DNA from: Rhizobium sp. Q54 | GTDB taxonomy: Bacteria > Pseudomonadota > Alphaproteobacteria > SMXS01 | Direction of reading: 5' to 3' | DNA: 52,918 bases | Assembly: GCA_945907245.1 (NCBI GenBank) | Contig: CAMDTB010000016.1 | Location: 1-52,918 of the forward strand | In this document: positions 14,439 through 39,921 of the stretch, piece by piece | Layout of the letters: every line of letters begins with the position of its first letter | Numbering within the stretch: position 1 is the first letter of the stretch | Notes under the pieces: model-generated | The model's database searches: none | The model's input: the letters and a program-made list of their open reading frames with translations, nothing else | Told to the model about the DNA's origin: nothing | Translations under genes and position numbers: made by a program

Positions 14439-14483
14439 CCGCGCGCTTCAACGAAAGCGCTGTGTTTTCGTGTCCGAGGATAC

Positions 14484-14515
14484 CCACCCGTCAGCGAAGG
14501 TTCGCCCGCGGGTGG
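14484..14515 (+). promoter_or_regulatory. Leader hairpin in front of ffh
   Basis: The outer arms CCACCCG (14484-14490) and CGGGTGG (14509-14515) are perfectly complementary; the inner arms GCGA and TCGC stack after a small internal loop. The hairpin ends 16 bases before the ffh ATG and is followed by CTTTGGTGTTT. It could act as an attenuator or mRNA stabiliser. Confidence 0.45.
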
Positions 14516-14531
14516 CTTTGGTGTTTGGAAA

Positions 14532-22546: not shown

Positions 22547-22619
22547 GTCATTGCGAGCGCAGCGAAGTAACCCAGGGGCCGCTTCTGGGTTGCTTCGTCG
22601 CTTCGCTTATCGCAATGAG
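22547..22619. repeat. REP-type palindromic repeat (CATTGCGA class)
   Basis: Long imperfect palindrome. CATTGCGA (22549-22556) pairs with TCGCAATG (22610-22617), and inside it AGCGAAGTAACCCAG faces CTGGGTTGCTTCG-type sequence. This GTCATTGCGAGC...CGCAATGAG design is a well-known extragenic repeat class of proteobacteria. It lies just after asd, where it can act as a terminator or 3' stabiliser. Confidence 0.8.
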
Positions 22620-23605: not shown

Positions 23606-24658
23606 ATGAGCAAGACCGCGCGCGGCAATTTCTTCGAGGATTTCAAACTGGGCCAGGAACTGGTCCACGCCACACCGCGGACGGTGACCGAGGGCGACGT
23701 GGCGCTGTACACCGCGCTCTACGGCTCGCGCTTCGCGGTCAATTGCTCGGACCTGTTCGCCATGGACCTGGGGCTCGCCGCCGCGCCGCTCGACGACTTC
23801 CTCACCTTCCACTTCGTGTTCGGCAAGACCGTGCCGGACATCTCCCTCAACGCCGTCGCCAACCTGGGCTATGCGGATGGCCGGTTCCTCAAGCCGGTCT
23901 ATCCGGGCGACACGCTCACCGCCGTATCCCAGGTCATCGGCCTGCGCGAGCTGTCGAACGGCAAGGCCGGCGTGGTCTATGTGCGCTCGACGGGCACCAA
24001 CCAGGCCGATGAGGTCGTGCTCGACTATGTCCGCTGGGTGATGGTCAACAAGGGCGATCCTGCCGCCAAGGCGCCCAAGGAAGTAATCCCCGATCTGCCC
24101 GCAGCCGTCGCCGCCCGCGACCTGATGGTGCCGGACGAGCTGGACTTCTCCGCCTACGACACGGTGCTGGCCGGTTCGTCGCATCTGTGGGACGACTACC
24201 AGGTGGGCGAGAAGATCGACCATGTGGACGGGATCACCATGGAGGAGGCCGAGCATATGCTCGCCACCCGCCTGTACCAGAACACGGCGCGGGTGCACTT
24301 CAACCAGGTGATGCAAGCCGAAAGCCGGTTCGGCAAGCGGCTGATCTATGGCGGCCACATCATCTCGCTGGCCCGCGCCATCAGCTTCAACGGCCTGGGC
24401 AACGCCTGCTTCATCGCCGCGCTCAACGGCGGCCGCCACGTGGCGCCCAGCTTCGCGGGCGACACGATCTTCGCGTGGTCGGAAGTGGTGGATAAGGCGG
24501 AAATTCCCGGCCGCACCGACGTGGGCGCGCTGCGCCTGCGCACGGTCGGCGTCAAGAACCAGCCGGCCACCGATTTCCCCGACAAGGGCGAGGACGGCAA
24601 GGATCATCCCGCCGTCGTGCTCGACCTGGACTACTGGGCGCTGATGCCACGCGGGTAA
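23606..24658 (+). CDS. mch: Mesaconyl-CoA hydratase (MaoC family, double hotdog)
   Basis: 350 residues; two MaoC-type hotdog domains. Motifs: FFEDFKLGQELVHATPRTVTEGDVALYTALYG, then FHFVFGKTVPDISLNAVANLGYADGRFLKPVYPGDTL and VYVRSTGTNQADEVVLDYVRWVMV, all characteristic of mesaconyl-CoA hydratase. The C-terminal half has RVHFNQ and YGGHIISLARAISFNGL. It hydrates mesaconyl-CoA to beta-methylmalyl-CoA in acetyl-CoA assimilation. It follows mcl2 by one base (TGAC-ATG), so the pair is coupled. Confidence 0.9.
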   Translation: MSKTARGNFFEDFKLGQELVHATPRTVTEGDVALYTALYGSRFAVNCSDLFAMDLGLAAAPLDDFLTFHFVFGKTVPDISLNAVANLGYADGRFLKPVYPGDTLTAVSQVIGLRELSNGKAGVVYVRSTGTNQADEVVLDYVRWVMVNKGDPAAKAPKEVIPDLPAAVAARDLMVPDELDFSAYDTVLAGSSHLWDDYQVGEKIDHVDGITMEEAEHMLATRLYQNTARVHFNQVMQAESRFGKRLIYGGHIISLARAISFNGLGNACFIAALNGGRHVAPSFAGDTIFAWSEVVDKAEIPGRTDVGALRLRTVGVKNQPATDFPDKGEDGKDHPAVVLDLDYWALMPRG

Positions 24659-24709
24659 TCGATGAAGCCGTTATGTTAGCTTTCTCCGGACCAACTCAAA
24701 CAAAAAATC

Positions 24710-24741
24710 ATTGTCATCCCGGCGAAAGCCGGGACCCAGTC
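24710..24741. repeat. REP repeat, left arm
   Basis: 32-bp arm beginning ATTGTCATCC with the internal perfect hairpin CCCGGC-GAAA-GCCGGG and ending GGGACCCAGTC. It is the exact inverse of 25036-25067. Another repeat of the same general plan, with a different stem, lies at 39894-39921. Confidence 0.9.
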
Positions 24742-24751
24742 GGCGGTGGAC

Positions 24752-25063
24752 ATGGACACAGTCTATGCCGTCTACATCATGGCGAGCAGGCGTAATGGCA
24801 CGCTTTACACTGGCGTGACCAGCGACCTGCTGAAGCGCGTTTGGATGCACAAGCATGACGTGCTTCCAGGCTTCACCAGTAAGTACAAGGTTCACCGTCT
24901 CGTCTGGTATGAGATTCATGTCGATGTTCGCGAAGCCATTCTGCGCGAGAAGCGCATCAAGGAATGGAAGCGCGCTTGGAAACTCAAGCTGATCGAGGAC
25001 ATGAACCCGGATTGGGAAGACCTTTACGACGGCTTGACTGGGTCCCGGCTTTCGCCGGGATGA
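24752..25063 (+). CDS. GIY-YIG nuclease-domain protein
   Basis: 103 residues from the ATG at 24752 (a GTG two codons upstream at 24746 is an alternative). A single URI/GIY-YIG domain: VYAVYIMAS and LYTGVTSDL form the two-strand motif, LLKRVWMHK carries the conserved arginine, and REAILREKRIKEWKRAWKLKLIE has the catalytic-glutamate helix. The last residues, TGSRLSPG, and the TGA are encoded by the right-hand REP repeat, so the repeat is part of the gene. Such orphan proteins are frequent in alphaproteobacteria and their role is unsettled. The close association with REP palindromes recalls RAYT transposases and their REPs, though the enzyme is unrelated. Confidence 0.88.
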   Translation: MDTVYAVYIMASRRNGTLYTGVTSDLLKRVWMHKHDVLPGFTSKYKVHRLVWYEIHVDVREAILREKRIKEWKRAWKLKLIEDMNPDWEDLYDGLTGSRLSPG

Positions 25064-25067
25064 CAAT
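25036..25067. repeat. REP repeat, right arm (also bidirectional terminator candidate)
   Basis: Exact inverse of 24710-24741. It lies at the convergent junction of the GIY-YIG ORF and the minus-strand acetyltransferase, with ATATATTTTATATTT after it on the plus strand, so the GC hairpin plus AT-rich tail can also terminate transcription. Confidence 0.85.
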
Positions 25068-25091
25068 ATATTTTATATTTCAGCTGGTTAA

Positions 25092-25607
25092 CTAAATCCA
25101 CCACCCGTATGCCCGCTGCCGGAGCACGGCCATGCCGAACCGTTCGTCCCGTTCGGCGACGGGGATGCCGCCGAGCCATTCGTAGAAGCCGACCGACGGG
25201 TTGTCGGCCAGCACCCAGGTGACGACGTTCTTGTAGCCGTCGGCGGACAGCCGGCGGGTGGACTCCCGGAACAGTTCCTGGCCGATGCCCTCGCCCTGCC
25301 ATTCAGGCAGCACATACAGGGTGTACATCTCGGCGGTGAACGGGATGGCGGCGTTGCGGTTGCGGCCGCTGGTGGCGAAGCCGACGATCTGCTTGCCCGC
25401 CACGGCGACCAGCACCAGCCGCTCGGTGTCGCGCGACAGCGTCTGGCGCCACAGCGCGAGGCGCCTGGCATAGGTCTGGGCCGACAGGACGCGGGGCGGC
25501 AGGATGCCGTCATAGGTCTCGCGCCAGCTGTCCACATGGACCCGCGCGATGCCTTCGGCGTCGCCGCTGGTGCCTTGCCGGATCGAGATGCCTGACTGGG
25601 TGATCAC
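25092..25607 (-). CDS. GNAT-family N-acetyltransferase
   Basis: 171 residues from the GTG at 25607, chosen because GGAGG lies eight bases upstream; a longer frame to 25655 adds a basic non-domain N-terminus. Acetyl-CoA-binding motif A is LYVLPEWQGEGIGQELFRE (the Q/RxxGxG/A part is QGEGIG), and VLADNPSVGFYEWLGG is motif B. HVDSWRETYDGILPPRVLS at the start is typical of small-molecule or amino-acid acetyltransferases. Substrate unknown. Confidence 0.88.
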   Translation of the reverse strand: MITQSGISIRQGTSGDAEGIARVHVDSWRETYDGILPPRVLSAQTYARRLALWRQTLSRDTERLVLVAVAGKQIVGFATSGRNRNAAIPFTAEMYTLYVLPEWQGEGIGQELFRESTRRLSADGYKNVVTWVLADNPSVGFYEWLGGIPVAERDERFGMAVLRQRAYGWWI

Positions 25608-25757
25608 GGGACGCGCCTCCAGTCGCAAGGATAGACCCAATCGACAAAAACGCAAATGACTCGCAACAGGATAGCCGGATTCCGGTGGTGCATAGCCGTT
25701 ATGCGCTGTCCAGCATGGATGAAGGGAGTATAAGCGGCAGTTAACAGGAGTCTGGCG

Positions 25758-39893: not shown

Positions 39894-39921
39894 CGTCATT
39901 CCCGCGCACGCGGGAACCCAG
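39894..39921. repeat. REP-type palindrome after lpd
   Basis: CGTCATTCCCGCG-CA-CGCGGGAACCCAG. It has the same GTCAT...CCCAG frame as the repeats around the GIY-YIG gene, but the stem is TTCCCGCG/CGCGGGAA. It sits 8 bases after the lpd stop. Confidence 0.8.

Follow-up and report, generated by a model that had tools for sequence, protein, structure and literature searches.

Does a small nuclease gene enclosed by two inverted palindromes form a mobile unit together with them, or is it a fixed gene that happens to lie beside common REPs? This question is raised by a 358-bp locus, positions 24,710 to 25,067, in a 52,918-nucleotide stretch of DNA from Rhizobium sp. Q54, which as a whole is called the window here. 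The original prediction was a REP-plus-nuclease mobile unit running parallel to the REP/RAYT systems. In the latter, the RAYT is an HUH (Y1) transposase that partners REPs with a GTAG tag and is unrelated to the GIY-YIG nucleases.

The left arm of the locus, ATTGTCATCCCGGCGAAAGCCGGGACCCAGTC, lies at 24,710-24,741 on the forward strand, and the right arm at 25,036-25,067 on the reverse strand is its perfect 32-bp reverse complement. Both were found by sequence and with a repeat finder, which stretches the inverted repeat to 39 nt at 92% (24,703-24,741 and 25,036-25,074). Each arm consists of a TGTC tag, a stem (TCCCGGC-GAAA-GCCGGGA) and a CCCAG tail, with the tag outermost and the tail innermost. 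Folding of the arm as single-stranded DNA gave a 7-bp GC-rich stem closed by a GAAA loop, with an energy of -9.3 kcal/mol and a z score of -4.14; none of 200 shuffles equalled it. The stem pairs over only 7 bp because the outermost A faces a C. The gene between the arms (24,746-25,063, forward strand) encodes 105 amino acids that match the GIY-YIG domain PF01541 (E = 4.2e-13). It starts with GTG, followed two codons later by an in-frame ATG, and its C-terminal residues and stop codon are encoded inside the right arm. The layout is thus as it had originally been described: exact inverted arms, a GC hairpin with a GAAA loop in each, one GIY-YIG gene between them and a right arm that supplies the end of this gene. 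No target-site duplication was evident by eye at the 358-bp element. The intergenic site that holds the element (24,660-25,091) varies in content among relatives. In the ORF list, the left neighbour ends at 24,658 and the right neighbour occupies 25,092-25,655 on the reverse strand; for these we adopt the earlier labels 'mch' and 'GNAT', which are assumptions made from the sequence alone. A known structured RNA at the element was rejected, as the sole Rfam match in the window was the ffh RNA at 14,470-14,523 (RF01793, 41 bits).

By its domain and its conserved residues, the protein belongs to the GIY-YIG superfamily. Y10, Y21, R31, H35, E68 and N87 are among the invariant columns of a 36-row alignment, and presumably they make up the GIY-YIG active site. 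An AlphaFold2 model built from 36 sequences had a mean pLDDT of 91 and a pTM of 0.83. Foldseek returned the UPF0213 protein BH0048 as the sole match below E 0.001 (E 4e-4); the runner-up, at E 0.055, was Slx1, a structure-selective nuclease, and this likeness is suggestive at most. A sequence search led to two UPF0213 entries, the nearest solved structures being 1zg2 and 1ywl, and we take COG2827 to be the COG of the window's nuclease. The 105 residues carry a single Pfam domain, and no accessory DNA-binding domain of the NUMOD type was found. The NCBIfam search assigned no family. A listed defence family was rejected, since PADLOC gave no match, and so was a listed phage family, as neither PHROG nor 50,697 phage records gave one. 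The gene is under purifying selection: by a simple count, dN/dS was 0.02-0.19 in 25 of the 28 pairs compared, and the remaining three were saturated and gave no value. The nuclease frame of Sphingobium TomTYG73 (L252, about 25,043-25,420) is apparently broken, with one base unlike its sisters.

The arm is not confined to this locus. A genome search for it had been proposed, and across the 3.34-Mb genome this returned 83 sites with the arm core (41 forward, 42 reverse, with up to two mismatches), mostly in short inverted pairs. The reversed control pattern of the core occurs 0 times in the same 3.34 Mb, and a chance inverted repeat is thereby excluded. Of these 83 type-A REPs, 58 form 29 inverted pairs less than 1 kb apart, with a median spacing of 60 bp. 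The interiors of such pairs (REPINs) are varied. The 29 pairs comprise 28 short ones and the window's element, which is the only one at least 250 bp apart. The search for a further 358-bp copy in the window's genome found none. By eye, no target duplication was evident at the 17 inverted pairs listed. Two more REP-like sites were seen in the window, one at 22,547 whose start is of the GTCATTGCGAGC type and one at 39,895 that resembles type B with three mismatches. At L009 (about 1501-1669), a pair of the CTGAGCTTGTCGAAGG class is nested within a type-A REPIN, which points to insertion of pairs of this kind as whole units.

The genome holds four GIY-YIG genes, three of which are enclosed by inverted REPs, and the REP is different for each. 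Besides the window's own gene, these are L032, flanked by GTCATCCCCGCGCACGCGGGGACCCAG, and L033, flanked by GTCACCCCGGACTTGTTCCGGGGTC. The fourth, L034 (34% identity), is unenclosed; the palindrome pair downstream of it belongs to another class. Within any one genome of the window's family, no two copies exceed 79% identity, which suggests that the gene-bearing unit moves rarely. A search for Y1_Tnp (PF01797) had no match in the window's genome, with matches in 15 of the 60 genomes searched, and a RAYT is therefore unlikely to be the enzyme at work in this genome.

How general the pairing is can be judged from the spacing of REPs. Using neighbouring inverted REPs of one type less than 1 kb apart as the unit, a pair test covered 233 REPs, with type A taken in G000 and types B and C in G000-G009. 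A nuclease is enclosed by all nine inverted pairs with a spacing of at least 250 bp (to 1 kb) and by none of the 68 closer pairs. The flanks of the homologues were scored separately, the arm score being the best ungapped inverted match between the 250-bp flanks on either side; the line was set at 14 after the controls had topped out at 13, and was kept thereafter. The nuclease query matches 28 of 60 genomes, counting the window's own, and after double rows at G007:C31 and G013:C11 were merged, 72 match rows gave 70 loci. Inverted arms were found at 39 of the 51 loci with E <= 1e-11 against none of 100 control windows taken 800 bp away, and nine of the 19 weaker loci reach the line against none of 37 shifted controls. 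The other 12 of the 51 homologues fall below it, some of them with a palindrome on one side only. By eye, three loci below the line (L038, L048 and L050) have dissimilar palindromes on both sides, and L085 has no convincing arm.

A second survey selected loci from genome contigs by protein pattern alone. Among the best 80 of at least 587 relatives, 74 loci were testable, each having 150 bp or more on either side, and 52 of these 74 carry matching inverted arms, compared with three of 414 shifted controls. For the same best 80 of at least 587, a GTC-tagged hairpin is present on both sides in 34 of the 74 testable loci (1/414 controls), and 64 loci have it on one side or both (23/414). Flanked genes extend beyond the proteobacteria to Elusimicrobia (L162), Uhrbacteria (L185 and L204) and Scalindua (L178); a Planctomycetaceae locus (L190) is unflanked. 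A plasmid collection yielded 33 records that match the nuclease. Six of the ten loci examined reach the arm line, as do four of 60 controls, all of them from REP-dense Neisseria and Photobacterium records. The viral collection gave 35 loci (L216-L250), 24 of the 30 testable ones reaching the line against none of 107 controls; a GTC hairpin is found in 16, and some of these contigs resemble near-copies of each other. The contigs of this collection that carry the nuclease may be host DNA or prophage edges; 50,697 phage records had no match. In the outward flanks of the arms, GTC is preceded by the known C or T, and a strong target motif is lacking. On a Planktothrix plasmid (L107, 2175-3091), a nuclease lies within a gene cluster, between MmeI and DISARM drmA, with palindromes near it and an arm score below the line.

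Divergent nucleases have REP variants of their own. Arm similarity was 0.85 within an element versus 0.37 between elements of one genome, as measured in the eight genomes with at least two two-armed elements (21 elements). Arm likeness also tracks protein identity. A Mantel test on the 113 of 140 elements with at least one hairpin (51 + 80 + 9 of ten plasmid loci, L106 being left out) gave r = 0.50 (p = 0.0005), whereby the 2000 permutations reached 0.22 at most, and r was 0.49 for the 93 elements outside the window's own family, host phylogeny being otherwise uncontrolled. The elements fall into two loop classes that are clustered on the protein tree, with 12 changes against 26 after shuffling and none of 500 shuffles as low, on a tree of 93 elements that has few columns and weak support and leaves out 20 elements with mixed or other loops. 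REPs and gene also co-occur. When at least two REPs of one degenerate pattern count as presence and are compared by hand with gene presence at E <= 1e-11, 16 of 60 genomes have both, seven the gene only, six the REP only and 31 neither (p = 4e-5), although the degenerate pattern misses some REP types and so inflates the 'gene only' class. When the window's family is left out, the numbers are seven, seven, five and 31 (p = 0.012).

A strict screen revealed a further division. CGTC hairpins were found at 24 of the 51 close homologues and at none of the 19 weak ones, whereas a CTGAGC-TTGTCGAAGG palindrome was found at none of the 51 close homologues, at eight of the 19 weak ones (at four of them on both sides) and at none of 137 controls; the split between close and weak was made by E-value and not by a tree. 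The weak genes with CTGAGC-TTGTCGAAGG palindromes are perhaps a second nuclease group with a REP class of its own. Loci of this group include L094 (1501-1734), L058, L060 and L104, together with L034 in the window's own genome. One exception is L099, which belongs to the weak set as a partial match and by eye has CGTC-like arms.

The comparison of filled and empty sites that had been suggested for the mch-GNAT junction could be carried out in six relatives; G006, G008 and G009 gave no orthologous site. The element is absent from G005 and G002, where short spacers of about 35 bp and about 70 bp, respectively, take its place. A different cassette of about 560 bp occupies the site in G001, G003 and G004 (L127, L126 and L125), and by eye it resembles a toxin-antitoxin pair. 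In G007, which belongs to another genus, a 70%-identical element is present in the opposite orientation. The original prediction had named one outcome against itself, namely the same gene with the same flanks at the same locus in all relatives and no other copies. Instead, the site varies and two more REP-flanked nucleases are present in the genome.

Similar variation was observed elsewhere. In Sphingobium, an element is present on plasmids of TomMM15, TomTYG46 and TomMM7A at a site where pTomTYG72 and S. herbicidovorans have neither gene nor arm; pTomTYG65 lacks the gene and has an unlike short palindrome, and in pTomTYG64 and pTomTYG74 a single symmetrical palindrome stands in place of the element. 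At L115, L116 and L266, a single symmetrical palindrome, tagged at either end, lies where relatives hold the whole element. We do not claim the single palindromes of pTomTYG64, pTomTYG74 and G003 site B2 as footprints of the enzyme, since slippage suffices: the inner half-stem of one arm directly repeats the outer half-stem of the other. In A. lipoferum 4B, an arm-matched element lies between sufB and sufC (L109, 2375-2993), and three other Azospirillum examined do not have it. The orientation of the gene relative to its flanks is reversed in some species in four orthologous groups. Both the inversions and the single-palindrome scars could arise from ordinary recombination or slippage.

The type-B gene occupies one shared site in G001, G002, G004 and G006 and other places in G000 and G005; G004 also retains the end of a type-B gene at the G000 site. 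The synonymous distance is 1.4 between L032 and L068, copies at two sites, compared with 0.49 between the orthologous L068 and L039, which indicates that the type-B duplication is old. At site B1, G001, G002, G004 and G006 carry a type-B nuclease element, G005 a type-B REPIN, and both G003 and G000 a type-A REPIN (loci L255, L257, L256/L259 and L068). In G000 this site is also interrupted by inserted DNA and by the end of a contig. At site S1, the REPIN interior in G001 is unlike that in G000 and G003. Two REPIN sites are polymorphic within the genus, and there are also sites at which a relative has no REP at all. Polymorphic REPINs were also found in four 50-kb Sphingobium plasmid stretches, where the junctions have diverged. 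A clean recent insertion that would fix the exact ends was found neither there nor at the other sites compared.

Taken together, these observations are best explained if the small GIY-YIG nuclease is a dedicated, RAYT-like partner of REPs with a CGTC or TGTC tag, and the window's element a gene-bearing member of its REPIN population. We give this reading, which rests on sequence comparisons, a probability of about 0.6. The enzyme would recognise its own REP hairpin, either in extruded form or in single-stranded DNA such as the lagging strand, and would nick at or near the base of the hairpin. Host repair or replication would then place a copy of the REP-bounded segment at a new location or within a different REP site, and the REPINs would be non-autonomous passengers of the nuclease. 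Recognition is suggested by the co-variation of arm and protein, and spreading by the REPIN populations and the polymorphic sites; the cutting step we infer from the protein fold. The predicted parallel to REP/RAYT is thus supported by the association of gene and arms and by the variation of sites. Mobility of the gene itself stands less firmly, as the copies are diverged and in place and no second 358-bp copy was found, and movement of the gene as a unit is what we infer. The nuclease gene is probably domesticated, because it has been kept long-term under constraint. It behaves like a domesticated RAYT, with diverged copies often at orthologous sites, more than like a multiplying insertion sequence.

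Several counts speak against this reading. Type-A REPs number 44 in G001, 64 in G003 and 45 in G004, and no type-A-armed gene was found in these genomes, whereas G007 holds the closest homologue and yet has just five type-A REPs. G003 also has 23 type-B and 18 type-C REPs with no matching gene found; at its type-C site merely a piece of the right arm remains, so that loss of the gene is likely. REPs in genomes where the nuclease had no match number 80 in G050, 27 in G053, 12 in G028 and nine in G059.

Such REPs without a nuclease would also fit a scheme in which an unrelated enzyme (e.g., a RAYT) or the host alone mobilises the CGTC REPs and the nuclease is a passenger with cognate ends, and Y1_Tnp genes are indeed present in 15 of the 60 genomes. 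However, the window's genome has no Y1_Tnp match, a passenger is not expected to be the one gene inside gene-sized REP pairs, and the accessible text of Di Nocera et al. (PMC3733652) states that no tyrosine transposase flanked by CGTC repeats was found; we regard this scheme as very improbable. Less probable still, with odds close to nil, is coincidence, whereby REPs gather beside genes and enclose a nuclease by accident. REPs are frequent in the window's genome, and there are homologues with a REP on just one of their two sides, but nine of nine gene-sized pairs enclose the nuclease, the controls are near zero and the arms track the protein, which refutes coincidence at the level of association. 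The simpler notion that REPs are merely dense around genes was rejected on the same controls and the same nine pairs.

An alternative is a host-domesticated repair or resolution enzyme that acts on REP cruciforms or branched DNA, with the flanking REPs as immobile regulators or terminators. Besides strong purifying selection on the nuclease, orthologous positions in several species, the weak structural likeness to Slx1 and the SOS box reported at the Caulobacter gene of COG2827 in the accessible part of PMC1839093 would agree with such a role. Patchy presence, element-free sites and opposite orientations do not; moreover, regulation needs no pair of inverted, element-specific arms, and the pairing occurs in distant phyla. 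We consider a host enzyme of this kind unlikely. A homing-like exchange, in which the nuclease cuts REP sites and repair swaps their interiors with a REP-bounded donor without creating new sites, appears rather improbable. The differing contents of site B1 and the differing interiors at site S1 are what it would produce, but spontaneous REP conversion or repeated insertion in one intergenic gap could do likewise, and REP-free sites in relatives imply that new sites arise too.

The preferred reading, a dedicated nuclease partner, may apply far beyond the window. A wider proposal, to which we give slightly less than even odds, is that standalone GIY-YIG nucleases drive widespread mobile palindromes of prokaryotes in at least two groups, each with a REP class of its own (CGTC hairpins and CTGAGC-TTGTCGAAGG palindromes), with cassettes copied or exchanged via hydrolytic hairpin cleavage and host repair, without an HUH or DDE enzyme or a recombinase. 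Among the matches listed for the open-access literature (PubMed Central), none was an earlier report linking GIY-YIG nucleases to REPs. The accessible text of a 2025 REP survey (PMC12306157) has no word beginning with 'nuclease', 'RAYT' or 'transposase', and that of the Bradyrhizobium and Coxiella repeat papers (PMC5082802, PMC5896051) has none beginning with 'nuclease', a word search that does not extend to 'endonuclease'. The spread of the CGTC REPs has hitherto been without an enzyme, and a small, apparently cognate one makes the question testable at the bench. Such an enzyme would be a second, chemically different partner for REPs, and would bear on a remark of 2006, in the part of the paper accessible, that it would be of interest to know if further GIY-YIG proteins behave as molecular parasites (PMC1564403). 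Genes annotated just as 'GIY-YIG nuclease family protein' may find an explanation here as well.

Among known proteins, the window's nuclease is most readily compared with the UPF0213 or UvrC-like single-domain GIY-YIG proteins (COG2827), which have the same domain and the same size; no REP association of these proteins was found in the literature examined, parts of which were accessible. It shares a catalytic domain and a mobile-element setting with the free-standing GIY-YIG homing endonucleases, but it is REP-bounded, and no extra DNA-binding domain was found in it. Unlike an insertion sequence, the element has diverged copies, and no target-site duplication was evident by eye at the 17 listed pairs.

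The arms resemble the CGTC REPs. According to the accessible text of Di Nocera et al. 2013 (PMC3733652), these have a CGTC, TGTC or CCTC tag, a loop of 4-5 nt, a CCA tail and a stem of 8-9 bp that almost always opens with complementary A and T. They occur mostly as head-to-head dimers in five phyla and all orders of the alpha subdivision, they include dRS3 of Neisseria and RPE-4/RPE-6 of Rickettsia conorii, and no dedicated transposase is reported for them there. The window's arm agrees in its TGTC tag, GAAA loop and CCCAG tail, and head-to-head dimers are formed by 58 of the 83 type-A REPs. In this copy the stem has 7 bp and an outer A that faces C; the A-T pair is present in relatives such as L035 and L062. 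In contrast to the CGTC REPs as published, the window's REPs enclose a GIY-YIG gene.

The closest parallel in behaviour is REP/RAYT, for which the accessible text of PMC8049555 describes REPINs with single-copy, vertically inherited RAYTs. As in that system, a small nuclease gene is enclosed by inverted REPs, a separate REPIN population exists elsewhere in the genome (83 REPs, with 28 short type-A pairs apart from the element), the enzyme variant is tied to the REP variant, and the nuclease copies are diverged and often inherited in place, some having moved or been lost. The differences are that the enzyme is a GIY-YIG protein (PF01541) and not a Y1 HUH transposase, and that the tag is CGTC or TGTC and not GTAG. 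Judged by its predicted parts, the window's system works like REP/RAYT but is not a member of it, since both the enzyme and the tag differ.
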